A DNA stretch of 34,181 nt from a virus. Location: positions 1 to 34,181 of IMG/VR virus record IMGVR_UViG_3300035183_000502. The stretch is one strand, 5' to 3'. The notes under the pieces were generated by a model. The model ran no database searches and was not told the origin of the DNA. It saw only the letters and a list, made by a program, of their open reading frames with translations. The position numbers were made by a program, and so were the translations under genes. Positions 7,253 to 34,181 of the stretch are shown here, in pieces; the stretch's first letter is position 1, and each line of letters opens with the position of its first letter.

Positions 7253-7908
7253 CCCTCAATCTCAATCTGTCGTTCGACCCCGCTCCTCCGCCGCCAACAC
7301 CGACACGTTACACGGGTTGGCGGTTGCTCTATACGGGCGAGGGCGGCAATGACAATCCGCTCAATATGCCGGCTGTCGCTCCGTCATTTGACGCGCAGCC
7401 GATACCGTTTACGGAGACGCTGCAATTGCTATCGTGGCAACTCATGCAGCGCCTCAATCGGACGATTACATCCATGCAATGGCGTAGTGTTTACAGATAC
7501 GACCGCGCATTTACTAACTTCAACGGGTTCGACGACCCAAACAATGCGTGCGCCGATTATGTCAATCGGCTGGATTTGGGCGCGCCGCTGCCGAAACTGA
7601 TGAAGGCCATCATTTGCAGCGGCTCGCTGTATGATGGGGTTGTCGAGGGCGACAAACTGGTTATGTATCCGGGTGTCCACGCAATGGATGCGGCGACTCC
7701 TGTTTCGGTTGACGAACTCATCCGCCGCCGATGGTATTTTCTCGCTACGTCATGGACCGGTAAAGGCGGCGCTCATTTTCCGCAGGGCAACGGCGGCGTC
7801 GTGCCGATACCGTACATCATTCGCGCGCGCACGGAGTATCCGCTGGCATGGTTTCAGCGGTGGGACACGTTCGCACTGCCAGACCCGCTGAAAATGTACA
7901 ACGTATGA
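7237..7908 (+). CDS. Hypothetical phage protein after the endolysin
   Basis: 223 residues, unrecognised. After a proline-rich start (PAPPPPTPT) the chain is a mixed alpha/beta, W/Y-rich protein (WRLLYTG, WQLMQRLNRTITSMQWRSVYRY). There is no signal peptide, membrane segment or obvious catalytic motif. It overlaps the endolysin end by 16 bases and is coupled to the methyltransferase start (ATGA at 7905), so it is a genuine part of the late operon. It could be a virion component; there is no basis for more. Confidence 0.7.
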   Translation: MDTQITLNLNLSFDPAPPPPTPTRYTGWRLLYTGEGGNDNPLNMPAVAPSFDAQPIPFTETLQLLSWQLMQRLNRTITSMQWRSVYRYDRAFTNFNGFDDPNNACADYVNRLDLGAPLPKLMKAIICSGSLYDGVVEGDKLVMYPGVHAMDAATPVSVDELIRRRWYFLATSWTGKGGAHFPQGNGGVVPIPYIIRARTEYPLAWFQRWDTFALPDPLKMYNV

Positions 7909-9089
7909 ACAGGAAATTTATTCCGCAACGCAAAAATGCTAATAAACACACCCAGCGCGGATTGCGGCTGCTGGAACGCTCACTGCAGCGCGACGGCTGG
8001 ATTGATGCGCAGACGGCGGCGGCGGATGGAGAGATTATCAGCGGTTCTGCGCGTCTGGAGGTTGCCGCCGAGAAATTTGCCGACGTGGAGCCGATTATCG
8101 TGGAGAGCGACGGTACGCGCCCGGTGATTGTGGTGCGAACGGATATTCCGAACGCCGATGACCCGCGCGCGCGGCGGTTGTCTGTGGCTGCCAATCAAAT
8201 TGCGCATGTGGATTACGACCCTGATGGCGATTTGCTGATGCAGTGGGCAGAGGAGGACAAGCAACTCCGCGAGATGTTTGACGATTTGGAGTGGAATGAG
8301 TTTGTGGATGGCAACGCAGAGACTCGCGACGCCGAGCCGCAGATTGACCGCGCGGAGGAACTTCGCGAAAAATGGGGCGTGGAGACTGGACAGTTATGGC
8401 AAATTGGCGAGCATCGGCTGATTTGCGGCGATTGCACAGACGCGGCGGTGGTGGCGAGAGTGATGGGAGGGGAGAAGGCGCAAGCGGTCGTAACTGACCC
8501 GCCATATGGACAAAACCAAAAAGGCGTTACGAATGACGAACCAGAAAAACTTTATCAAATTCTTTTAGGATGTATTAAAAATCTCCCAGTAGATAACGCT
8601 GTTATTGTCTCGTTTGCAAGCCCGCGAACTTTCACGGAATGGCTAGATTTGACACGCGCAAGCGGTCACAAATTTGAGAGAATGTTATGGTTATACAAGG
8701 CGGCGCAAGAAACGTTTCCATGGCGAGGATGGCTTCTGAAGTCAGAAGCCATCCTAATCACATCAAAAGGCGCAGGCGTTTGGCAGGATGTACACCCCTA
8801 TTCGCATGATTGTTATTACAAGTCCGAAGTGAGTGGTCAACTCGTGCCGAGTGTTGGTTGGCACGGAAGCGTTAAGCCTCTTGATGTTGTGATGGATTTG
8901 ATAAAAAGAATATGCGATAGCACTGCTATTGTTTACGACCCGTTTTGCGGAAGCGGCACGACAATGGTTGCCTGCCAGAACCTGGGGCGCAAATGCCGCG
9001 CGGTGGAAATCAGCCCCGCCTACTGCGCCGTCATCCTGGAGCGCATGGCAACCGCATTCCCAGATTTGAGCATTGCGAGGCTGGAATGA
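7905..9089 (+). CDS. ParB/Srx-domain DNA methyltransferase (N6-adenine or N4-cytosine type)
   Basis: 394 residues from ATG 7905, chosen because it overlaps the previous stop (ATGA); a longer frame from 7848 exists but would overlap 61 bases. Residues about 1-110 are a ParB-like nuclease domain (IPQRKNANKHTQRGLRLLERSLQRDGW, then GSARLEVAAEKF). Residues about 165-390 are an amino-methyltransferase with D-P-P-Y at 198-201 and the SAM-binding D-P-F-C-G-S-G-T-T near 345-353, an order (DPPY before FxGxG) typical of beta-class enzymes. It probably modifies phage DNA, perhaps just before packaging, because small terminase follows immediately. The segment 8500-8940 is more A/T-rich than its flanks, hinting at a domain swap. 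Confidence 0.9.
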   Translation: MNRKFIPQRKNANKHTQRGLRLLERSLQRDGWIDAQTAAADGEIISGSARLEVAAEKFADVEPIIVESDGTRPVIVVRTDIPNADDPRARRLSVAANQIAHVDYDPDGDLLMQWAEEDKQLREMFDDLEWNEFVDGNAETRDAEPQIDRAEELREKWGVETGQLWQIGEHRLICGDCTDAAVVARVMGGEKAQAVVTDPPYGQNQKGVTNDEPEKLYQILLGCIKNLPVDNAVIVSFASPRTFTEWLDLTRASGHKFERMLWLYKAAQETFPWRGWLLKSEAILITSKGAGVWQDVHPYSHDCYYKSEVSGQLVPSVGWHGSVKPLDVVMDLIKRICDSTAIVYDPFCGSGTTMVACQNLGRKCRAVEISPAYCAVILERMATAFPDLSIARLE

Positions 9090-17345: not shown

Positions 17346-17803
17346 GCATCTCGCTGCTGCTGCCGAATATCACTGCCGCAATTGCGTCCATCAATGTCAC
17401 GGGAGTTACAATCCGTGACACAAATAATTGGAGCGTAGCATATCCGCTCGCGCCGAACGTGTTGTATCCAAACCCAGAGGGGTTTCTGACGAATTTCAGT
17501 TTGCAGTATCAGTCATTTACGCGCGGCGCGAGCGCGCTGGTTGATGTGCGTTACACGCTCAATTATCGTTTTCTCGGCTCGGCAATCGGAGATAACGCCA
17601 CAATTGTCACGGGCTGGTCGGACATGATTGACAAACTGACATCTATCATTGCCAAGATGATTGAGGTTACTGCGCCTTATGACGGGCGTGTTGACATGGA
17701 GGTTGCCGAGGTGACGGTTGGAGCGCGGGCTGACCCGGCTGGCAATATGTATCACGGCGCAGACATTGCGATGACCGTGACAGAGATGCAAAACGCATCG
17801 TGA
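17342..17803 (+). CDS. Tail terminator / tail completion-like protein
   Basis: 153 residues, mixed alpha/beta. A first helix (LLLPNITAAIASI) is followed by beta strands (SALVDVRYTLNYRFLG) and a long helix (WSDMIDKLTSIIAKMIEV), a profile similar to small tail terminator proteins. Its position between connector and tail-tube genes agrees. The family match is by pattern only. ATGA-coupled to the connector. Confidence 0.55.
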   Translation: MSISLLLPNITAAIASINVTGVTIRDTNNWSVAYPLAPNVLYPNPEGFLTNFSLQYQSFTRGASALVDVRYTLNYRFLGSAIGDNATIVTGWSDMIDKLTSIIAKMIEVTAPYDGRVDMEVAEVTVGARADPAGNMYHGADIAMTVTEMQNAS

Positions 17804-17810
17804 GGTAATT

Positions 17811-18575
17811 ATGCCAAGAACAAACAGCAAATGGACACGCGTGTATATTGGCGGCTACGATTTATCCGGCAGCGCGCGGCAAATTGGACCGCTGGCTCTC
17901 ACATATGACGAAGCCGATATGACTACGCTGGCAGACGAGGTTAAATGCGTTCTGCCCGCTCATGCGCAGGTGAGCCTCGGCACGCTAAACGCTGTACTGG
18001 ACAATTCGACGAGCGGTATCCACACCGTATTATCATCGCCTGGTCAGATGCAATGCGTCATGGTTGCCATTGGTATGGCGGCGGAGCCGGCGCAGGGCAG
18101 CCCAGTATTTATGGGCGAGTTTGAGCAGAGCGGATACAATAGCGAGCAGAGCGGCGGCGTGTATGTCAGCGCGCCGTTTGAATCGTCCAGCGCGCGCAGG
18201 AGCGTCGTGGCGTACGAAAATCCGTTCGGCGTATTGCTGCGCCCCAAAACTGCAACAACGGCTGTCAATACGAGTGTTGGCGTTGACGATTATGGAGCGT
18301 CAACATCATTTGGCGGCTACATGACATATCAGGTATTTGCAGGCAACGGCACGGCAACCATTAAAGTACAACACGCATCTACCAACGCTGACGCTAGTTT
18401 TGCCGATTTGTCTGGATGCACGACTGGCGTTATAAATTGCTCGACGCCGAGCGCCGGACGCATCGCAACGACGTTGCGAACCACTACTGTTAATCGTTAT
18501 ATTCGCTGGCAAATTGTACTCGGGACAGCGACCAGCGTAACATTCGCGCTCGGTTTTCATCGGGCGCTACGATAA
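17811..18575 (+). CDS. Tail tube-like protein with extra C-terminal domain
   Basis: 254 residues. Residues about 25-70 (LALTYDEADMTTLADEVKCVLPAHAQ and the following strand) align clearly with residues about 35-80 of the next gene product (LTYDEVELTAFTDAIKGVLPAHPD), so the two are paralogues. The first about 150 residues would be the tube-fold part. The last about 100 residues (GVDDYGASTSFGGYMTYQVF to the end) form a T/S/A-rich beta domain lacking in the paralogue, perhaps displayed on the tail. SD GAGGTAATT precedes ATG 17811. Confidence 0.65.
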   Translation: MPRTNSKWTRVYIGGYDLSGSARQIGPLALTYDEADMTTLADEVKCVLPAHAQVSLGTLNAVLDNSTSGIHTVLSSPGQMQCVMVAIGMAAEPAQGSPVFMGEFEQSGYNSEQSGGVYVSAPFESSSARRSVVAYENPFGVLLRPKTATTAVNTSVGVDDYGASTSFGGYMTYQVFAGNGTATIKVQHASTNADASFADLSGCTTGVINCSTPSAGRIATTLRTTTVNRYIRWQIVLGTATSVTFALGFHRALR

Positions 18576-26601: not shown

Positions 26602-26617
26602 ATCCAATCACCCGTCA

Positions 26618-26863
26618 TCATTCAACCGCATCCAATTCAAACATCTCAACCGGCGGCTCTCTGCCTTCCAACACATATTGATAACATTTTGACGGCGCGT
26701 CTTTTGTCGCTCTACGCCACAACCTGTACTGCCTGACGCGCCGCATTTGTTCATCCTCGGGAAGACCGGCCAATTTCAAACCGTTAGCAATGTGCGCGGC
26801 TGCGAAATTGTTGGCAGCCAGTTTTTCGTCTACAATCCATTGGATAATATTCATTTTTGCCAT
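26618..26863 (-). CDS. Small hypothetical protein
   Basis: 81 residues behind a very strong ribosome binding site (GGAGGTGATTGG, ATG 26863). Helical and basic in the middle (EDEQMRRVRQYRLWRRATKDAP), acidic at the end. It begins 13 bases inside the upstream gene. Unrecognised; a small DNA-associated or regulatory protein is possible. Confidence 0.65.
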   Translation of the reverse strand: MAKMNIIQWIVDEKLAANNFAAAHIANGLKLAGLPEDEQMRRVRQYRLWRRATKDAPSKCYQYVLEGREPPVEMFELDAVE

Positions 26864-27111
26864 CCAATCACCTCCAACACTTCCCGCAGCAACGCGATGG
26901 CTCGCTCTCTGCGTTCGGCTGACAATCCAACCATCTCACGCCACACGCCGATAAACATGCGCGGCAATCCAGTTTTCGCAAACTGTTCGCGCGCCTCGTC
27001 TGGCTCCGAGATGCGGAATATCGTCTCGATTTCGTCAACGCCGCATCGGTGGGTGAGATAATAGTTGATTACCTCATCTGGATTACTCCACTGGCGCGCG
27101 TGGTTGTACAC
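26851..27111 (-). CDS. Hypothetical helical protein (start uncertain)
   Basis: The credible coding part is about 86 residues from GTG 27111 (YNHARQWSNPDEVINYYLTHR...RRERAIALLREVLEVIGWQK), mostly helical. The open frame extends to 27327, but that extension overlaps the better-supported zinc-ribbon frame at 27131-27256, so I exclude it. There is no clear SD before 27111; coupling to the zinc-ribbon gene is likely. Function unknown. Confidence 0.55.
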   Translation of the reverse strand: MYNHARQWSNPDEVINYYLTHRCGVDEIETIFRISEPDEAREQFAKTGLPRMFIGVWREMVGLSAERRERAIALLREVLEVIGWQK

Positions 27112-27130
27112 GCTGTACGGGACACGCTCG

Positions 27131-27256
27131 TCACCGCCACTCCGTAACCCGATTGTATTTTTGTTTTTGCCGCTCACGATAAATTTTGCTGCGGCATTTG
27201 TTGCAATACGAGTTTCGGGTGTAAATTGTCTCACCGCACAATTTACATTTTCGCAT
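27131..27256 (-). CDS. 41-residue zinc-ribbon microprotein
   Basis: ATG 27256 follows GGAG at a suitable distance and opens a 41-codon frame ending at TGA 27131-27133. The product has C4-x2-C7 and C18-x2-C21 (MRKCKLCGETIYTRNSYCNKC), a complete four-cysteine ribbon, then a basic tail. Such small ribbons are frequent in phage accessory regions and often bind nucleic acid. The competing longer frame here lacks an SD. Confidence 0.7.
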   Translation of the reverse strand: MRKCKLCGETIYTRNSYCNKCRSKIYRERQKQKYNRVTEWR

Positions 27257-27310
27257 AGTGCATCTCCATTTGGGCGGCTCTGTGCAGGGAGGCAGTTCTG
27301 CATGGTGTAT

Positions 27311-27439
27311 TTACCATGTTGCCGCAAACCTCAGCACGGAACGCGACTGCGAGGGGTATGTATCGCGCGCAATCCACCTGGCAAAGTGATTTTTTGATTG
27401 CGCGGGCTTCGGTTCTCTTGTTGCCACAACTCCCTGCAT
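27311..27439 (-). CDS. Possible 42-residue protein at the cassette array border
   Basis: ATG 27439 lies seven bases beyond the last recombination site of the array (27446-27452 on the - strand side). The frame encodes a basic peptide (MQGVVATREPKPAQSK...) ending at TAA 27311-27313. The SD is weak. If real, its expression would depend on transcription through the array, and its 5' flank was created or altered by cassette insertion. Confidence 0.4.
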   Translation of the reverse strand: MQGVVATREPKPAQSKNHFARWIARDTYPSQSRSVLRFAATW

Positions 27440-27445
27440 ACAGCC

Positions 27446-27550
27446 GCCCAACGGTTATTTACTGGCGGGGCGACCTACCAGAACGCTTGCCACTAATAGA
27501 ACCTTTTTGAGCCGTGCGCTTCGCCCCGTCCAGTGCACGCGATGTTCGGC
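27446..27550 (-). repeat. attC: attC site A
   Basis: Ends GCCCAAC (27446-27452) and GTTCGGC (27544-27550). Inner arms ACTGGCGGGGCGA (27461-27473) and TCGCCCCG-T-CCAGT (27521-27534) pair completely except for the extrahelical T at 27529. Last site of the array in reading direction. Confidence 0.8.
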
Positions 27551-27677
27551 GGCGTGCTTCTATTGAACAGCGTAACTTACCGCAAACCTTTTTTGAATAA
27601 TAAAAACCATCGTGGACGCAACCTTCGCAGGAAAGCCCACATACTACGCATTTATATCTATATAAACGATTACACAT
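27459..27677 (-). CDS. Cassette gene: cysteine-rich small protein
   Basis: 72 residues. The N-terminal half has cysteine pairs (CVVCGLSCEGC, then C32 and C37), probably a zinc site; the C-terminal half is basic (AKRTAQKGSISGKRSGRSPR) and is encoded by attC A itself. ATG 27677 has GGAGG at optimal distance. The unit begins at the B site (GTTCGGC) and ends in A, whose matching half is exactly complementary. Function unknown; the cassette is the last of the array. Confidence 0.7.
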   Translation of the reverse strand: MCNRLYRYKCVVCGLSCEGCVHDGFYYSKKVCGKLRCSIEARRRTSRALDGAKRTAQKGSISGKRSGRSPRQ

Positions 27678-27691
27678 TTTTCCTCCAAGCC

Positions 27692-27793
27692 GCCGAACGG
27701 TCTTGCGTTAGCCGCCGCCGCTTTCAGAATTTTCGTCCACTGCCTCTCCGCCATGCGTTAGTTGCGCGTTGAATGCTGCACGCTGTGTTAGCC
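27692..27793 (-). repeat. attC: attC site B (hybrid, arms do not pair)
   Basis: Ends GCCGAAC (27692-27698) and GTTAGCC (27787-27793). The left half is nearly identical to site I (CGCTTTCAGAATTTTCGTCC shared), but the right half (TTGCGCGTTGAATGCTGCACGC) does not complement it. It appears to be a recombinant of two attC sites and is probably poorly active. Confidence 0.6.
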
Positions 27794-27926
27794 AGACTAA
27801 AAAAAATGCGGAGTCTTGCCAACATAATGCAACAAAACTTTCCTTCGGGGTCTGGAAGCCAAACAAACTAAGCATTGCCTGCCCCATCAAACAACTTAAG
27901 AACATTGACCATAAATTTATTTTCAT
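27708..27926 (-). CDS. Cassette gene: small membrane-type protein
   Basis: 72 residues with a hydrophobic N-terminal segment (LWSMFLSCLMGQAMLSLFGF) and a C-terminus ENSESGGG encoded by the attC. The same eight-residue ending occurs in the cassette at 30037 because the sites share sequence. No good SD; the region upstream of ATG is a truncated attC. Unrecognised. Confidence 0.5.
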   Translation of the reverse strand: MKINLWSMFLSCLMGQAMLSLFGFQTPKESFVALCWQDSAFFLVWLTQRAAFNAQLTHGGEAVDENSESGGG

Positions 27927-27928
27927 AC

Positions 27929-27994
27929 GCTTTCAGAATTTTCGCCGTCCGTCTCTCCGCCAGCGGCTGTCGGCTGCATGCTTTGTTGGTAGGC
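27929..27994 (-). repeat. attC: Truncated attC (site C)
   Basis: CGCTTTCAGAATTTTCG and AGCGGCTGTCGGCTGCATGC match the inner-loop and right-arm portions of site I, ending GTTGGTAGGC. The left arm and left core box are missing. Adjacent boundaries here are the ones that fail the complementarity rule, consistent with a deletion or rearrangement. Confidence 0.65.
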
Positions 27995-28148
27995 GTTTCA
28001 CTGCATTACGAGATACACATTCTCGCTGACCATTTTCAAACTCTATCAGGCACGAGTTCAGCGAGCCGCGCGCTACGATACGACAGGGACGCTTATACAG
28101 CGTCTCCCTTTTTTCGTTGTTCTTCCATGCGTAATAATATTCAAACAT
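27933..28148 (-). CDS. Cassette gene: hypothetical small basic protein
   Basis: 71 residues from ATG 28148, five bases after the R' box of site D, as is common for cassette genes with almost no leader. N-terminus aromatic (MFEYYYAWKNN), middle beta-like (PCRIVARGSLNSCLIEFENGQRECVSRNAVKRL), C-terminus basic and encoded by the truncated attC. A longer frame to 28190 would read through site D. It may be a small SH3-like domain. Unrecognised. Confidence 0.55.
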   Translation of the reverse strand: MFEYYYAWKNNEKRETLYKRPCRIVARGSLNSCLIEFENGQRECVSRNAVKRLPTKHAADSRWRRDGRRKF

Positions 28149-28152
28149 AAAC

Positions 28153-28242
28153 GCCCAACGGTTTGCGTTAGCGGTTGGCGATTGTGCCAAACCACTTTTT
28201 CAGGCGTGCCAGTAAGCCAATCCGCTGCACGCTGTGTTAGCC
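28153..28242 (-). repeat. attC: attC site D
   Basis: Ends GCCCAAC (28153-28159) and GTTAGCC (28236-28242). Arms GCGGTTGGC and GCCAA-T-CCGC pair with the extrahelical T at 28221; shared flanks are GTTTGCGTTAG and CTGCACGC. Confidence 0.85.
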
Positions 28243-28422
28243 AGCCCGCTTTATCATGGCTTGATAATATTCGGTAAATACTTGATAGTACTCACGGTAT
28301 TCCTCCTGCCACGTCGTGCAAAACGGGCTGCCGTACAACTCCCAACCCTCCGAGAGAAGACGGTTAATTTCTTGGGCGAATTTTTCTTTGTCATCAATTA
28401 CGCTTACTATCTGATATTCCAT
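28237..28422 (-). CDS. Cassette gene: DUF1737-like small protein
   Basis: 61 residues starting MEYQIVSVIDDKEKFAQEIN and continuing with LLSEGWELYGSPF. The pattern of a strand, then a helix, then LL-x-EGWEL-x-G-P matches the short DUF1737-type domain, abundant in environmental bacteria. The remainder is aromatic and acidic (EEYREYYQVFTEYYQ). ATG 28422 has AAAGGAG upstream. The stop lies in the core box of site D. Biochemical role unknown. Confidence 0.7.
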   Translation of the reverse strand: MEYQIVSVIDDKEKFAQEINRLLSEGWELYGSPFCTTWQEEYREYYQVFTEYYQAMIKRAG

Positions 28423-28451
28423 TTTTCAAACTCCTTTGTTTGCAACTCGCT

Positions 28452-28579
28452 TTCTAACGGTTATGCGTTAGCGGCTGTTGCGGCTTGACGAGATACCTGC
28501 GCCCCGGCGTTCGCCTGTTTGCCACGGACTATCTTCAAGCGGCTCCCGTAGCAACAGTCCGCTGCACGCTTTGTTAGAA
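28452..28579 (-). repeat. attC: attC site E
   Basis: Ends TTCTAAC (28452-28458) and GTTAGAA (28573-28579). Arms GCGGCTGTTGC and GCAACAG-T-CCGC pair with the extrahelical T at 28558. The right end is exactly complementary to the left end of site F. Confidence 0.87.
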
Positions 28580-28773
28580 AGCCTATCACGCACAGCAGAT
28601 TCAATAAAAACGATGACGCCTTCATCGACTTGAAAATCAACAATGCCACGCGGGTTCTTTCCACAAAAACAATCATGCGGGACAGCACTGGCAAATTGGC
28701 GCTCGCCAACTTCGCTTACCAGGGCACAAAGACGCTCGATAACTTCTTTAGGGTTTCTAATTGCAGATGACAT
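28468..28773 (-). CDS. Cassette gene: hypothetical protein
   Basis: 101 residues. The first about 65 form a compact alpha/beta sequence (NPKEVIERLCALVSEVG..., DFQVDEGVIVFIESAVRDRL); the last about 35 are encoded by attC E and look like run-through. SD GGAG before ATG 28773. The VDF-x-V-D-x-G-VIVF stretch is strand-like. No family recognised. Its start lies 17 bases inside the boundary set by site F. Confidence 0.6.
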   Translation of the reverse strand: MSSAIRNPKEVIERLCALVSEVGERQFASAVPHDCFCGKNPRGIVDFQVDEGVIVFIESAVRDRLSNKACSGLLLREPLEDSPWQTGERRGAGISSSRNSR

Positions 28774-28789
28774 AATTCTCCAAGAGGCT

Positions 28790-28879
28790 TTCTAACGGCA
28801 AGCGTTAGCAGCGTGGGGCATAACCGACTGTCCAAAAATTGCCCAGCCTGCCCCACGTCTGCTGCACGCTGTGTTATGT
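28790..28879 (-). repeat. attC: attC site F
   Basis: Ends TTCTAAC (28790-28796) and GTTATGT (28873-28879). Arms GCAGCGTGGGGCA and TGCCCCACG-T-CTGC pair with the extrahelical T at 28858. The right end is exactly complementary to the left end of site G despite its unusual sequence. Confidence 0.88.
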
Positions 28880-29140
28880 GCCGTCACTCCCTAGAACCAA
28901 CTCGCCAGGCTCAGGGCGACGGATCGTAATGATGTCGTTGCCACATTGAAAAACAAGATTGTTACCGTTCTCCTCAATAGCATTGAAAACCCACAATTCA
29001 AGTTTGCGGATTTGTCCGCCGATGGTTTCTCTCTCGAAAACAAAATGCTCATTTTTGCGAGCAGAGAATTTATAGGGTGCGCCCGCCCCATGACGAGCGC
29101 CACCCATTTTGCCTTTACTCATGCCCTTTTTGCCAGCCAT
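28874..29140 (-). CDS. Two-gene cassette, second gene
   Basis: 88 residues. The lysine/glycine-rich start (MAGKKGMSKGKMGGARHGAGAPY) is of the GGARxGAGxP type found in small DNA-associated proteins. A beta-rich body follows (HFVFERETIGGQIRKLELWVFNAI...DIITIRRPEPGELVLG). The ATG shares TAATG with the stop of the first gene, so translation is coupled. It may be one half of a regulated pair such as a toxin-antitoxin or defence module; that is inference from architecture only. Confidence 0.65.
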   Translation of the reverse strand: MAGKKGMSKGKMGGARHGAGAPYKFSARKNEHFVFERETIGGQIRKLELWVFNAIEENGNNLVFQCGNDIITIRRPEPGELVLGSDGT

Positions 29141-29433
29141 TACAGCACCTCAATTTCAGCCAGTAAACGGGACAACTTTCGATATGCCTCACTGCGCTCG
29201 GTGGAGCCTTCCATATGGCTCAAGTATTCATAGGATTTCACGGTTTCTTTCGGCTGGTAGCGGAACTGATGAGCACGATCGCCAGTGTGTACGGCGTATG
29301 TGATTGATACGCTATGCCCGCCTTGATTAGTCTGCCAGCGGGATAATGAGAAACCTTTTTGCTTGCAAACCGATTCGATTTTTGCGACTAACTGACCAAC
29401 TGCTGATGTTTCGGGGACGTTGTAGAGTTTCAT
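29140..29433 (-). CDS. Two-gene cassette, first gene (own promoter)
   Basis: 97 residues, alpha/beta, unrecognised (ETSAVGQLVAKIESVCKQKGFSLSRW, SVSITYAVHTGDRAHQFRYQPKE, then helices). ATG 29433 has an AGGAGATA ribosome binding site and, unlike other cassette genes here, a dedicated consensus promoter flanked by an 8-bp inverted repeat. An autonomous regulated promoter plus a coupled partner gene is the usual design of toxin-antitoxin cassettes in integrons. No known toxin or antitoxin motif is seen. Confidence 0.68.
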   Translation of the reverse strand: MKLYNVPETSAVGQLVAKIESVCKQKGFSLSRWQTNQGGHSVSITYAVHTGDRAHQFRYQPKETVKSYEYLSHMEGSTERSEAYRKLSRLLAEIEVL

Positions 29434-29442
29434 TTTTTATCT

Positions 29443-29504
29443 CCTATTGAATGATTGATTATCTTGATTACAATTATATTCAAAATAATCATAATGTCAA
29501 TAGG
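29443..29504 (-). promoter_or_regulatory. Cassette promoter with flanking inverted repeat
   Basis: On the - strand TTGACA (29495-29500) and TATAAT (29473-29478) are separated by 16 bp, both perfect. CCTATTGA (29443-29450) and TCAATAGG (29497-29504) form a perfect inverted repeat, one arm on the -35 and one on the ribosome binding site, suitable for autoregulation. Confidence 0.8.
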
Positions 29505-29537
29505 TTGAACCTTAAAAAATCGGCAGGCACGGAAGGC

Positions 29538-29629
29538 ACATAACGGTTTACGTCAGCGGCGGGGCGTGCCGCCAACGCTGTCTGATTCGGCGGACACGTC
29601 AGCCCCGTCCGCTGCACGCTGTGTTAGGC
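29538..29629 (-). repeat. attC: attC site G
   Basis: Ends ACATAAC (29538-29544) and GTTAGGC (29623-29629). Arms GCGGCGGGGC and GCCCCG-T-CCGC pair with the extrahelical T at 29608. Both ends are exactly complementary to the facing ends of sites F and H. Confidence 0.88.
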
Positions 29630-29760
29630 GTTTCTCTGGTGAGGGAGAGAGTCCTGCTGATCCTCGTATTCGGCTGACGCACCCACGCCCACTCGCCTTG
29701 CAGGAATCGAACCTGCCCACAGTATCTCTCCAGAGGAGTCGAACCTCTCACCAAACAAAC
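29630..29760 (-). ncRNA. Non-coding cassette with two tRNA T-arm-like hairpins
   Basis: This 131-base cassette has no convincing gene. Read on the - strand it contains AGAGG-TTCGACT-CCTCT and, 19 bases on, GCAGG-TTCGATT-CCTGC. Each is a 5-bp stem with a 7-base TTCRAYT loop, exactly as in tRNA T-arms. An outer stem TGGTGAG/CTCACCA joins the cassette ends, and GGAGAGA can pair with TCTCTCC. I see no anticodon arm and no complete cloverleaf. It is either a pair of tRNA 3'-fragments or a tRNA-mimic RNA. The 63-codon open frame crossing it lacks an SD and is not called. Confidence 0.6.
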
Positions 29761-29883
29761 GCCTAACGGTTTGCGTTAGTTGCCGCCGAATTAGCGGACG
29801 AACACAAACCAACAAATACCAAATCCAGCAATGAACGCCAGCATACCTACGCCAAAGGCGGTCAACTGCACGCGGTGTTGGGC
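29761..29883 (-). repeat. attC: attC site H
   Basis: Ends GCCTAAC (29761-29767) and GTTGGGC (29877-29883). Arms GTTGCCGCC and GGCGG-T-CAAC pair with the extrahelical T at 29862. The long loop contains the end of the gene at 29791. Confidence 0.87.
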
Positions 29884-29997
29884 GGCGTATTGTTCCAACG
29901 AATGTCGCCAGCAGTAGTGCGTCATTATTTCCGTGCGGCTGTTATAGCGACAACCGCATGACATTTCTCGGATACGGTCAGCAGACGTGAATGGCAT
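29791..29997 (-). CDS. Cassette gene: small membrane protein with Cys/His cluster
   Basis: 68 residues. The N-terminal part has C14-x-C16 and H27-x2-C29-x2-H (SCGCRYNSRTEIMTHYCWRH), a possible metal site. The C-terminus is a single hydrophobic helix (FGVGMLAFIAGFGICWFVFV) encoded inside attC H. SD AAAGGA precedes ATG 29997. Likely membrane-bound; function unknown. Confidence 0.65.
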   Translation of the reverse strand: MPFTSADRIREMSCGCRYNSRTEIMTHYCWRHSLEQYAAQHRVQLTAFGVGMLAFIAGFGICWFVFVR

Positions 29998-30020
29998 AAT
30001 TTTCCTTTCTGGGCAAAGCC

Positions 30021-30111
30021 GCCCAACGGACTGGCGTTAGCCGCCGCCGCTTTCAGAATTTTCGTCCGCAGACTCTCCGCCAGCGGCGGTCGGCTGCACG
30101 CTTTGTTGGGC
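30021..30111 (-). repeat. attC: attC site I
   Basis: Ends GCCCAAC (30021-30027) and GTTGGGC (30105-30111). Arms GCCGCCGCCGCT and AGCGGCGG-T-CGGC pair with the extrahelical T at 30090. Both ends complement their neighbours. Confidence 0.88.
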
Positions 30112-30234
30112 GGCTTTTTCTTCGCGTTCGGCGATGGATAGTAAAGATAAAGCAATCACCCATAAGGCATCTTCCTTGCTGCCTTCTGTTGCGTGACTTG
30201 AAGCATATTTCTTGGCGAGTTGAATGTAGTTCAT
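30037..30234 (-). CDS. First cassette gene: small helical protein
   Basis: 65 residues; helical and charged (MNYIQLAKKYASSHATEGSKEDALWVIALSLLSIAEREEKAA), then a tail (ENSESGGG) encoded by attC I. SD GAAGG precedes ATG 30234. This is the cassette nearest the leftward promoter and so should be the best expressed. The border GCCCAAC (30261-30267) is not backed by a full attC and marks the insertion point, attI-like or a secondary site. Function unknown. Confidence 0.65.
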   Translation of the reverse strand: MNYIQLAKKYASSHATEGSKEDALWVIALSLLSIAEREEKAAQQSVQPTAAGGESADENSESGGG

Positions 30235-30298
30235 ATTATTACCTTCTTTCTGGCGAAGCCGCCCAACTATGAATTATATGGAACTGATTAATAGAAGA

Positions 30299-30490
30299 TT
30301 AATTATCTTTCTCTAACTGTTGCGCGACAGCCTGGCGGCTAACGCCAAACTGTCGCCCGATTTTCTCCAGCGTCCATCCGCTGGAGCGGAGGCGGCGCAT
30401 CTCTGCCCGCCTCGCCGCGGTCCACAATGCAAGCCACTCCGCGCGGCTGTACTGGTAGATTTGTTTTTCAATGGTTTGCTTTTTGCTCAT
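30299..30490 (-). CDS. Small HTH regulator of the divergent switch
   Basis: 63 residues. Residues about 32-60 (MRRLRSSGWTLEKIGRQFGVSRQAVAQQL) are a clear helix-turn-helix of the sigma-region-4/Trp-repressor type. ATG 30490 lies only seven bases after a perfect -10, so the message should be leaderless or nearly so, with no SD, as known for cI made from lambda PRM. It reads divergently from the DNA-metabolism genes and directly precedes the cassette array. It is the best candidate for the repressor or regulator of both promoters. Confidence 0.75.
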   Translation of the reverse strand: MSKKQTIEKQIYQYSRAEWLALWTAARRAEMRRLRSSGWTLEKIGRQFGVSRQAVAQQLEKDN

Positions 30491-30497
30491 GTTTCCG

Positions 30498-30525
30498 ATT
30501 ATACGGATTTTTGCTACTCTGTCAA
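30498..30525 (-). promoter_or_regulatory. Leftward promoter (HTH gene, likely cassette expression promoter)
   Basis: On the - strand TTGACA (30520-30525), a 16-bp spacer and TATAAT (30498-30503), both perfect. Transcription enters the HTH gene and then the cassette array in the cassette reading direction. Confidence 0.85.
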
Positions 30526-30538
30526 GGGCAAATCACCA

Positions 30539-30566
30539 TTGACAAAACAACAGATTTGGATATAAT
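30539..30566 (+). promoter_or_regulatory. Rightward promoter of the SSB-tail gene block
   Basis: TTGACA (30539-30544), a 16-bp spacer and TATAAT (30561-30566), both perfect, back to back with the leftward promoter; the two -35 boxes are 13 bp apart. AAAAAAGGAG follows before ATG 30593. Confidence 0.87.
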
Positions 30567-30592: not shown

Positions 30593-30973
30593 ATGCCACC
30601 AAGAAAACCTATGGAACTGATTAGTGCAATGGAAAAAATTGACGCCGCGTGGAAGAATTACGACGCCGCCATCGAAAGCGGCGCGTCGCGTGATGTGAAA
30701 GACAGCGCGTTCGCCGCCGCATTCAAAGCCGAACAGAATGTTCATGACTGGTACAACCGCTGGCAAAAACTCGGTGGCACATCGGACATTGAGTCCATTG
30801 TTGCCGCCGAGGAAGAGCGGTTGAGCGTCGGAAAAAGAACCGCTATGCAATACGGCGACGCAGACCTCGGCACGCGCTGCATTGTCAGCGGCGGAGATGT
30901 GCTCGAGGTGGATTATTATATTGACGCCTCTTACGAGGATAAAAACGGCGATACAGACGATTTGCCGTTCTGA
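30593..30973 (+). CDS. Small acidic protein with SSB-like DDLPF tail
   Basis: 126 residues. A helical N-terminal two-thirds (MELISAMEKIDAAWKNYDAAIES...) is followed by a short beta part and an acidic C-terminus ending D-T-D-D-L-P-F. That ending mimics the conserved DDIPF tip through which bacterial SSB recruits replication and repair proteins. It lacks an obvious OB fold, so it may be a partner-recruiting decoy or accessory rather than SSB itself. First gene behind the rightward switch promoter. SD AAAGGAG lies about 10 bases before ATG. Confidence 0.7.
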   Translation: MPPRKPMELISAMEKIDAAWKNYDAAIESGASRDVKDSAFAAAFKAEQNVHDWYNRWQKLGGTSDIESIVAAEEERLSVGKRTAMQYGDADLGTRCIVSGGDVLEVDYYIDASYEDKNGDTDDLPF

Positions 30974-31084: not shown

Positions 31085-31984
31085 ATGTCTAAATTTACCG
31101 ATGGTTCAGCAAGTGCATATGCAGAGTTGCCTGTTAGGGTCGCTTATCTGCGCTGGACGCGTGGAAACGCTCAATTACGACTTATTGCAAAAGATGACCC
31201 CGCTCAATATTTTGGTGGTTGGCGCGCAAATGTCGTAGACAAAGATGGAAAACCAAACCCCGAAATCCCGTTGCCAGTTGTTGAAAGGGTATCGCAGGAT
31301 GGAAAGCATACCTATAAAGTGTATGCTAGTAATGTGATTGAATTTTTGCCCATCCAACACCGCACGCGATTCGAGTTGCGCGAAAAAACCAAAGACCCAT
31401 TAACTGGACGTGAGGTCATTAAAATCAAAGCGACATCTAAAAAGCGTTTGCCTGGTTATACGCCGGTCAGACAAGTTTTCGGGCTTGTTTACAATGGCGA
31501 CAAATGCGCTCCAGCCGTGATTTACATTGACAAGTGGTCAACGTTCATCTCGTTCGAGCGCACCGGGCAAAAGTGGGGAAAAATTAAGGAGCCGGATGGT
31601 AAGGCTCTTGTCCGTCGCTATGGCACCGTTGGCAAAGACGGTCTCCCGGTATTTGAGACATACGGAGAATCACAGTCAACACCAATCGAGGCAATTGGCG
31701 TAGACCATCCTCGATTTGTTGACATCACGCCAGAACTGGATGATTTGTACGAACAGTCTTTGGCGTGGAAGGAGTGCCCGCGTTGGAACGCGGAAAGTGA
31801 CGATGTTGATGAAACTATTGGCGGAGACCCAGCCCTGAAATTGTTTGCTGAACGAGTGAAAGAACTCGGGTTGACAAATATCGAGATTGAACAACTTGTA
31901 AAGGAGCATAACGGTAATTACGCTGCGGCTTTAGCGGCAATTGATGATGCTCCTCTACAAGACGAGGATGCTTTCCCATACTGA
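31085..31984 (+). CDS. Putative ssDNA-binding / recombination protein with acidic aromatic tail
   Basis: 299 residues. The N-terminal about 230 are beta-rich (PVRVAYLRWTRGNAQLRLIA..., VFGLVYNGDKCAPAVIYIDKWSTFISFERT) and could hold an OB-like fold. Residues about 255-287 (RVKELGLTNIEIEQLVKEHNGNYAAALAAID) form a UBA-like three-helix unit. The end D-E-D-A-F-P-Y resembles an SSB/gp2.5-type C-terminal tip. With the preceding DDLPF protein and the replication genes nearby, single-strand DNA binding is the best inference. Followed by a structured repeat element. Confidence 0.6.
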   Translation: MSKFTDGSASAYAELPVRVAYLRWTRGNAQLRLIAKDDPAQYFGGWRANVVDKDGKPNPEIPLPVVERVSQDGKHTYKVYASNVIEFLPIQHRTRFELREKTKDPLTGREVIKIKATSKKRLPGYTPVRQVFGLVYNGDKCAPAVIYIDKWSTFISFERTGQKWGKIKEPDGKALVRRYGTVGKDGLPVFETYGESQSTPIEAIGVDHPRFVDITPELDDLYEQSLAWKECPRWNAESDDVDETIGGDPALKLFAERVKELGLTNIEIEQLVKEHNGNYAAALAAIDDAPLQDEDAFPY

Positions 31985-32648: not shown

Positions 32649-32727
32649 GTGGCAGCGCATAAAATGGAGCAATGGCAGGTTGTTTGTGTCCTGCCAGTTG
32701 CTGACGTTTGCTCCATACGTCTGCCAC
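32649..32727 (+). promoter_or_regulatory. Nested three-helix 5' leader of the ParB-methyltransferase gene
   Basis: Three perfect concentric helices: GTGGCAG (32649-32655)/CTGCCAC (32721-32727), ATGGAGCA (32664-32671)/TGCTCCAT (32709-32716), TGGCAGG (32673-32679)/CCTGCCA (32690-32696). It begins about 14 bases after the predicted transcription start and ends 50 bases before ATG 32778. An upstream-regulatory RNA or protein-binding leader is likely. Confidence 0.7.
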
Positions 32728-32777
32728 TGGCAACTGGTAGGACAGAGACAATCTGCTTTTTGCATTGCGGAGACAAT

Positions 32778-34001
32778 ATGGAACGAAACATTGATGAAAT
32801 AAAAATCTCAAACAGACATCGCAAAAATCTGGGGGATATTGAGGGACTGGCGTCCAGTATCGAAAAAATCGGATTACTGCATCCAATTGTCATCCAACCA
32901 GATAATACGCTCGTCGCTGGAGAGCGGCGGTTAGCGGCGTGCAAACTGCTCGGCTGGAAAAAAATACCAGTGCGAGTTGTGAATCTGGACGACATCGTGC
33001 GCGGCGAGCATGACGAGAACGTTTTCCGCAAGGATTTTACCCCGTCCGAAGCCGTTGCCATCGGCGAAGCACTCGAACCGCTGGAACGCCAGGCGGCGAA
33101 AGAGAGACAAGCGCAACACGGAAACACCGCGCCAGGAAGAAAATCAAACACTCTGGAAAATTTTTCCGAAGTGAAAAATAATCGCGCTCTCGACAAAGTG
33201 GCTTCGGCGGTTGGCATGTCGAGACCAACGTACCAGAAGGCGAAAGAGATTGTCCGGTTTGCGCAAACCGTCCAGATGCCTGAACTGATTGAGGTGATGG
33301 ACGAAAAAGGCGTTGAACGCGCACTGAAACAAAAACGAAAAATTGAGATTGAGAAGCGGCGCGCGGAGATGGCGAAGGCGGGCGCGCATGTGCTACCATC
33401 AGAGCGCTGGCGCATTTGGCATGGGGACATCAGAACGTGGAACGCGCCGCGCAAGTACGACTTCATCATTACAGACCCGCCGTATCCAAAGGAATACCTG
33501 CCGTTATGGGAAACGTTGGCGGAGCGAGCGAATGAATGGCTGACAGACGGCGGGCTGCTAATCGCCATGAGCGGACAAAGTTACTTTGACGGAATTATGG
33601 AGATGATGAGCCGCCATTTGGATTATTACTGGACTGGCTGCTATCTGACGCCCGGACAACCAACGCCAATGCGTCAGGTCAATGTAAACACCACATGGAA
33701 GCCGCTATTGATTTTTACAAAGCGCGGCGGAAAATATACGGGCAAAATTTTTGGCGACGTTTTCGTCAGCGATGGCAACGATAAAAGCCTGCACAAGTGG
33801 GGGCAATCGGAAAGCGGCATGTTTGACATTATCTCGAAAATCTGCCTTCCAGGACAATGGATTCTCGACCCGTTTTGCGGCGCGGCAACAACTGGCGTTG
33901 CCGCGCTTCGTCATGGATGCCTGTTTCACGGATTGGAACTGGAAGCCGAAAATGTTGAAATTGGAAAAGCGAGGCTGTATGACATCGAAAAGACGGGATA
34001 A
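32778..34001 (+). CDS. ParB/Srx-domain DNA methyltransferase (second copy of this architecture)
   Basis: 407 residues from ATG 32778 (GCGGAG five bases before); the open frame extends further upstream only through the structured leader. ParB-like N-terminus with the G-E-R-R box at 48-51 and an HTH-like segment (ASAVGMSRPTYQKAKEIV) near 142-160, a fuller ParB than in the 7905 gene. The methyltransferase has D-P-P-Y at 233-236 and D-P-F-C-G-A-A-T-T at 364-372. Likely modifies adenine or cytosine amino groups on phage DNA, early, and might also sense parS-like sites. It overlaps the nuclease gene at 33979 by 23 bases. Confidence 0.88.
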   Translation: MERNIDEIKISNRHRKNLGDIEGLASSIEKIGLLHPIVIQPDNTLVAGERRLAACKLLGWKKIPVRVVNLDDIVRGEHDENVFRKDFTPSEAVAIGEALEPLERQAAKERQAQHGNTAPGRKSNTLENFSEVKNNRALDKVASAVGMSRPTYQKAKEIVRFAQTVQMPELIEVMDEKGVERALKQKRKIEIEKRRAEMAKAGAHVLPSERWRIWHGDIRTWNAPRKYDFIITDPPYPKEYLPLWETLAERANEWLTDGGLLIAMSGQSYFDGIMEMMSRHLDYYWTGCYLTPGQPTPMRQVNVNTTWKPLLIFTKRGGKYTGKIFGDVFVSDGNDKSLHKWGQSESGMFDIISKICLPGQWILDPFCGAATTGVAALRHGCLFHGLELEAENVEIGKARLYDIEKTG

Positions 34002-34181
34002 CCACTCGACAGAATTTGGCTTATGGCTTCGTGAGCAAAAAGAAATTGACAGCGGTCTTGGATTTGTGGCGTCGAATATTGATTACATTTGGCGAAATTA
34101 CAAGACAGGCGAATGGATGATTATCGAGGAAAAACGTCACGGAAAAGATTGTCCGCAATGGCAAAGAGAAATTTTCATCAT
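33979..34181 (+). CDS. PD-(D/E)XK-like nuclease, N-terminal part (continues at base 1)
   Basis: ATG 33979 lies 23 bases inside the methyltransferase gene. The frame is open to the window end and, through the identical overlap, continues at bases 1-287 for a total of 120 codons. The N-terminus (MTSKRRDNHSTEFGLWLREQ) supplies E12 of the proposed active site. See the entry at 1-287. Confidence 0.75.
   Translation, partial: MTSKRRDNHSTEFGLWLREQKEIDSGLGFVASNIDYIWRNYKTGEWMIIEEKRHGKDCPQWQREIFI
34055..34181. repeat. Terminal direct overlap (copy 2)
   Basis: Identical to bases 1-127; marks circular closure of the assembly. Confidence 0.93.

Follow-up and report, generated by a model that had tools for sequence, protein, structure and literature searches.

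The window analysed here, the whole 34,181-nucleotide stretch of IMG/VR record IMGVR_UViG_3300035183_000502, is a phage genome. The same 127 bases stand at both ends (positions 1-127 are an exact copy of 34055-34181), so the contig closes into a circle of 34,054 bases. It is complete, with packaging and structural genes, and encodes a terminase, a portal protein, an endolysin, a ParB-methyltransferase protein and DnaB. Two of its genes (7848-9089 and 32649-34001) each have ParB-like and DNA methyltransferase matches. The protein encoded at 31085-31984 has no relatives in IMG/VR, a Rfam search of the window matched no family, and GenBank phages searched with the window DNA and one cassette protein gave no match.

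A gene-cassette array occupies positions 27270-30267. Since the cassette ORFs lie on the minus strand, the plus strand is the recombinogenic bottom strand of the attC sites, and on it lie eight full attC sites and one truncated site in a single orientation, as a preliminary description of this DNA had claimed. Its count of nine cassettes also holds, with a further distal cassette (27270-27446, minus strand, repeat I3) now added, which moves the left limit of the array from 27446 to 27270. This distal cassette has complementary ends and has lost its own attC, stopping exactly at the R'' cleavage position (27269/27270, GCCCAA|). Beyond it is a phage gene truncated at 27132 (26851-27132, minus strand), the intact homologue of which (190 residues) adjoins dnaB in two related phages, G012 and G426. 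The block 26613-27132, found beside dnaB in these relatives, is relocated, inverted and truncated at the distal array end of the window.

Numbered from the right, cassette 1 (30028-30267; attC 30021-30111) carries an ORF at 30037-30234 and cassette 2 (29768-30027; attC 29761-29883) one at 29791-29997. Cassette 3 (29545-29767; attC 29538-29629) has no long ORF; its body (29630-29767, minus strand) is predicted to form a very stable RNA fold (z -4.2) with two hairpins resembling tRNA T-arms (GGUUCGANUCC), and although neither Rfam nor ARAGORN matched this body, it is possibly a non-coding RNA cassette. Two overlapping ORFs (29140-29433 and 28874-29140) lie in cassette 4 (28797-29544; attC 28790-28879), and single ORFs in cassette 5 (28459-28796; ORF 28468-28773; attC 28452-28579) and cassette 6 (28160-28458; ORF 28237-28422; attC 28153-28242), the latter matching DUF1737 at 33.6 bits against a cut-off of 24. 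The ORF of cassette 7 (27928-28159; ORF 27933-28190) runs into the site, and the attC of this cassette is the truncated one (27928-27991). Cassettes 8 (27699-27927; ORF 27708-27926; attC 27692-27793) and 9 (27447-27698; ORF 27459-27677; attC 27446-27550) complete the nine.

The attC sites have RYYYAAC...GTTRRRY ends with L boxes. A profile trained on 42 sites, all from records other than the window, accepted seven of the eight full sites at 46-69 bits and gave the truncated site 29 bits, compared with a maximum of 17.9 bits in 60 random windows; the records behind the profile were first found with a window-derived pattern, which leaves the sequences independent of the window although the search itself was seeded from it. 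An attC model was the check that the preliminary description had proposed. The eighth site, 27446-27550, was not picked up by the profile yet carries consensus ends; it is of a different subtype and is 79% identical to one site in record G019. The single bulged T on the plus-strand arm, already remarked on in the window, is found in 146 of 153 related sites (95%) and is flanked by covariation as in true attC. Variable pairs beside it are complementary at 0.88-0.95, versus 0.40-0.53 when shuffled, and the covariation is strong on both sides of the T and vanishes unless the T is skipped. A bulged T with flanking covariation is the bottom-strand signature of integrons. The minimum-energy DNA fold is the canonical hairpin for four of the eight full window sites. 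Site 27692-27793 is chimeric, joining two attC halves, does not fold (z +1.6) and is probably dead, and the site at 27928 has lost half of its attC; because these two sites are broken, decay may be under way in part of the array.

The six adjacent cassette-end pairs reported to be exactly complementary are so, over 10-12 nt rather than the 7 first given. Among 110 cassettes from 31 records, end matching follows cassettes and not sites (mean 7.48 versus 3.97 nt; 0 of 2000 permutations). With cassettes in the same orientation and ends that match within the cassette, the region has the form of a gene-cassette array, and both the array and the end matching support the earlier proposal of cassette-by-cassette assembly by an integron integrase.

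At its right end the array reads AAC|TATGAATTATATGG and abuts a putative attI-like site (30265-30305, minus strand; junction AAC|TATGAATTATATGGAACTGATTAATAGAAG; crossover 30267/30268). A profile was made from 17 attI sites adjoining intI, 14 of them taken from other Anaerolineae genomes and three from phage-like contigs, and of 68,326 window positions scored with it the junction comes out first; this profile was partly collected with a TA-containing motif, and the TA core alone is therefore not countable from it. Four other phage array ends also rank first and the remainder rank 2-28 (some as low as 11-28), and the similarity spans only about 20 nt. When array ends were located by cassette-end complementarity alone, 17 of 20 began with TA (13 TAT, 4 TAG), and an eighteenth (L116) does so after a one-base frame shift. 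Genes flanking the arrays are mostly unrelated among the array-bearing records inspected, and the ends nonetheless read AAC|TA. In integrons of bacteria from the same class, this core lies roughly 145-250 bp upstream of intI, and six of seven exact-partner junctions there, found without any TA requirement, begin with TA. In chromosomal genomes no attI was found on the downstream side of intI, because the arrays there lie upstream.

A predicted Pc-like promoter (30498-30525, minus strand) with a perfect TTGACA-16-TATAAT arrangement, 12 of 12 positions of the sigma-70 consensus, would read through a small HTH protein gene (30299-30490, minus strand; weak HTH matches) and the attI-like site toward the cassettes. 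It is retained in the sister phage G426 (IMGVR_UViG_3300035183_000203). A motif at 30335 in the HTH gene (repeat I1) was considered as an attC half and rejected, being coding sequence with the rest of a site missing. A second perfect sigma-70 promoter (30539-30566, plus strand) diverges from the first, 13 bases apart, and is aimed at the gene 30593-30973. An exact 14-base direct repeat, TATGGAACTGATTA, occurs at 30277-30290 in the attI-like flank and at 30610-30623 at the start of the latter gene. From sequence, then, the window appears to have two elements of a complete integron, an attI next to the first cassette and a promoter into the cassettes. The third, the intI gene, is lacking: as first reported, no intI is present, and PF00589 (tyrosine recombinase) is without a match across the whole circle. 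With at least two attC sites and no intI the window is a CALIN, the label given in the preliminary description, which is right for the array but omits the attI-like site and promoter at its right end.

Cassettes can insert at attG sites outside integrons, and such insertions resemble the window in placing a cassette beside a single GTT core. The array might be a plain CALIN that entered at a chance secondary site of this type, attI-like merely through the core preference of the integrase. Off-target cassette insertion is well established, and beyond the short core ATA|GTT some array ends have little in common, but we consider this explanation unlikely. Unlike an attG insertion, the window site is attI-like and common to sister phages: the array of G426 ends at the same backbone nucleotide, and the approximately 36 bp past this junction are nearly identical in the two phages and conserved better than the adjoining HTH gene. 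Moreover, TATGTTTATACGG and GCGGAATGTACA are among the longer motifs that recur at array ends in different phage contexts, and AACTATGAATTA is common to the window and one attI-like site beside intI.

Outside the array the window and G426 are 87.5% (1-2890), 82% (26613-27132) and 89.7% (33388-34181) identical. Window positions 27447-27698 match G426 at 97.6% over exactly one cassette, cassette 9, including its own attC; the sequence differs at both borders and the cassette has other neighbours on each side. No second whole cassette is common to the two phages, despite backbones 82-90% identical. These comparisons weigh on a second explanation, in which a single event of ordinary recombination brought in the attI and array as a block from a bacterial integron, and the block has been a passive passenger since. 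The truncated and chimeric attC sites, the lost distal attC and the truncated neighbouring gene do speak of decay and rearrangement. A passive block is nevertheless improbable, given that the arrays occupying this spot in the two sister phages have hardly a cassette in common and that the one shared cassette exceeds the backbone in identity while keeping different company on both sides. It is very improbable indeed that the window is an assembly chimera, a hazard that the preliminary description had raised as a phage-bacterial join, or a bacterial contig wrongly classed as viral: assemblies do often break at cassette arrays, but terminase, portal, endolysin and DnaB are present, the contig is circular and the right junction is repeated in G426, a separate record.

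At the distal array end of G426 (L080, L081; reverse-strand 17735-18101) a gene for a holin-like small membrane protein sits between a half attC and a full attC, as if turning into a cassette. In the relative G012 (DnaB 88%), two attC sites elsewhere in the genome flank an ORF labelled methyltransferase-like from a reading of its translation. The attI platform is not essential, since G011, a complete circle with a related terminase (TerL), is without attC.

Arrays of this kind are widespread. At least two attC sites scoring at least 35 bits are present in 37 of 48 records examined, the window included; related records were gathered by attC pattern scans and protein scans, and a few may be one virus from different samples. 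More than 30 IMG/VR contigs besides the window carry its attC type, most readable ends being AAC|TA, and four array-bearing records are circular (G009, G016, G017 and G019, G017 having been read short by 50 bases). Of ten large cassette ORFs scanned in related arrays, eight match DNA methyltransferase families, two of these eight near or below the family cut-off. Because of these matches the cargo of the related arrays suggests counter-restriction; the window's own cassettes are small, and their proteins have no workable set of relatives.

Of 150 genomes from the class to which CFX6 belongs, 43 have IntI relatives, some adjoining the same attC type. The CFX6 intI (TIGR02249, 432 bits) lies near terminase and major head genes, and on account of these neighbours is placed inside a prophage. 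Three IMG/VR contigs carry an IntI 75-88% identical to that of CFX6, together with terminase. Since this prophage and these contigs carry IntI, the group holds both integrase-bearing and integrase-less phage integrons. Four phage or prophage contigs (L074, L075, L076 and L034) have complete integrons with intI, attI and attC. The window terminase has no match in 298 Anaerolineae genomes, in which no whole window cassette was found either, only attC arms. The cassettes may have come from the host's integron, as first proposed; the one whole-cassette match is in the phage G426. A strict attC pattern run over 400 genomes of the phylum matched only CFX6, the pattern being too strict. The host is probably a member of the Chloroflexota, and the attC and attI type would place it in the Anaerolineae.

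CALINs are known in both virulent and temperate phages, with 17 among 10,705 genomes in the survey of Qi 2023, who suggest entry by off-target or illegitimate recombination and whose assay showed phage attC sites to be recombined by IntI1 (PMC9892861). The window is like those CALINs in having an attC array without intI in a phage genome, and window-related arrays, too, include methyltransferase cassettes; unlike them, the present case has an attI-like site and promoter, different arrays in sister phages and dozens of related contigs. Complete integrons are present in Vibrio and Shewanella phages, and a Shewanella prophage CALIN also has an attI (PMC9892861). Complete prophage integrons (Vibrio, Shewanella, G423-G425 and the CFX6 contig) resemble the window in having attI and cassettes in phage DNA, but carry intI. 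The chromosomal (sedentary) integrons of Anaerolineae share its attC type and attI-like core, theirs upstream of intI, whereas the window has no intI and has phage sequence beyond attI. No paper on integrons of Anaerolineae phages was found, which is weak evidence as subscription papers and preprints were mostly outside the search. Phage CALINs were already known; the present analysis adds the resident attI-like platform with its promoter, the sister comparison and the breadth.

We therefore favour, with a probability of about 0.68, the reading that this phage carries an integron platform minus the integrase, with attI and cassettes of its own, on which IntI from the host or a co-resident prophage acts in trans. 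The phage has no such enzyme and the mostly different row of its sister starts at the same nucleotide, so that phages of this kind probably borrow the cassette-moving enzyme from their hosts. The platform would consist of the promoter, the attI-like site and some ten cassettes in a row. Most likely, IntI from the host chromosome, or from a co-resident prophage or phage having intI, would act cassette by cassette on folded single strands: the attC bottom strand (plus) would fold while the phage DNA is single-stranded, new cassettes, each a single unit bounded by attC, would be inserted at the attI of the phage, and attI-proximal cassettes would be transcribed from the promoter at 30525. In this scheme the sequence comparisons made here provide the basis for the unit and the acceptor site; for activity and the single-strand step the basis is known integron biology together with Qi et al. 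(PMC9892861).

A broader reading, for which the odds fall a little short of even, is that many Chloroflexota phages harbour attI platforms without an integrase, as satellites of the integrons of their hosts, trading cassettes, many of them for DNA methyltransferases, through host IntI in a phage-phage-host market of counter-defence. If the platform reading is true, phage CALINs would be, rather than stray remnants, functional platforms served in trans by a recombinase of the host. This would explain how small accessory genes are reshuffled faster than the phage backbone, and would provide integron biology with a mobile carrier testable with a few defined sites.
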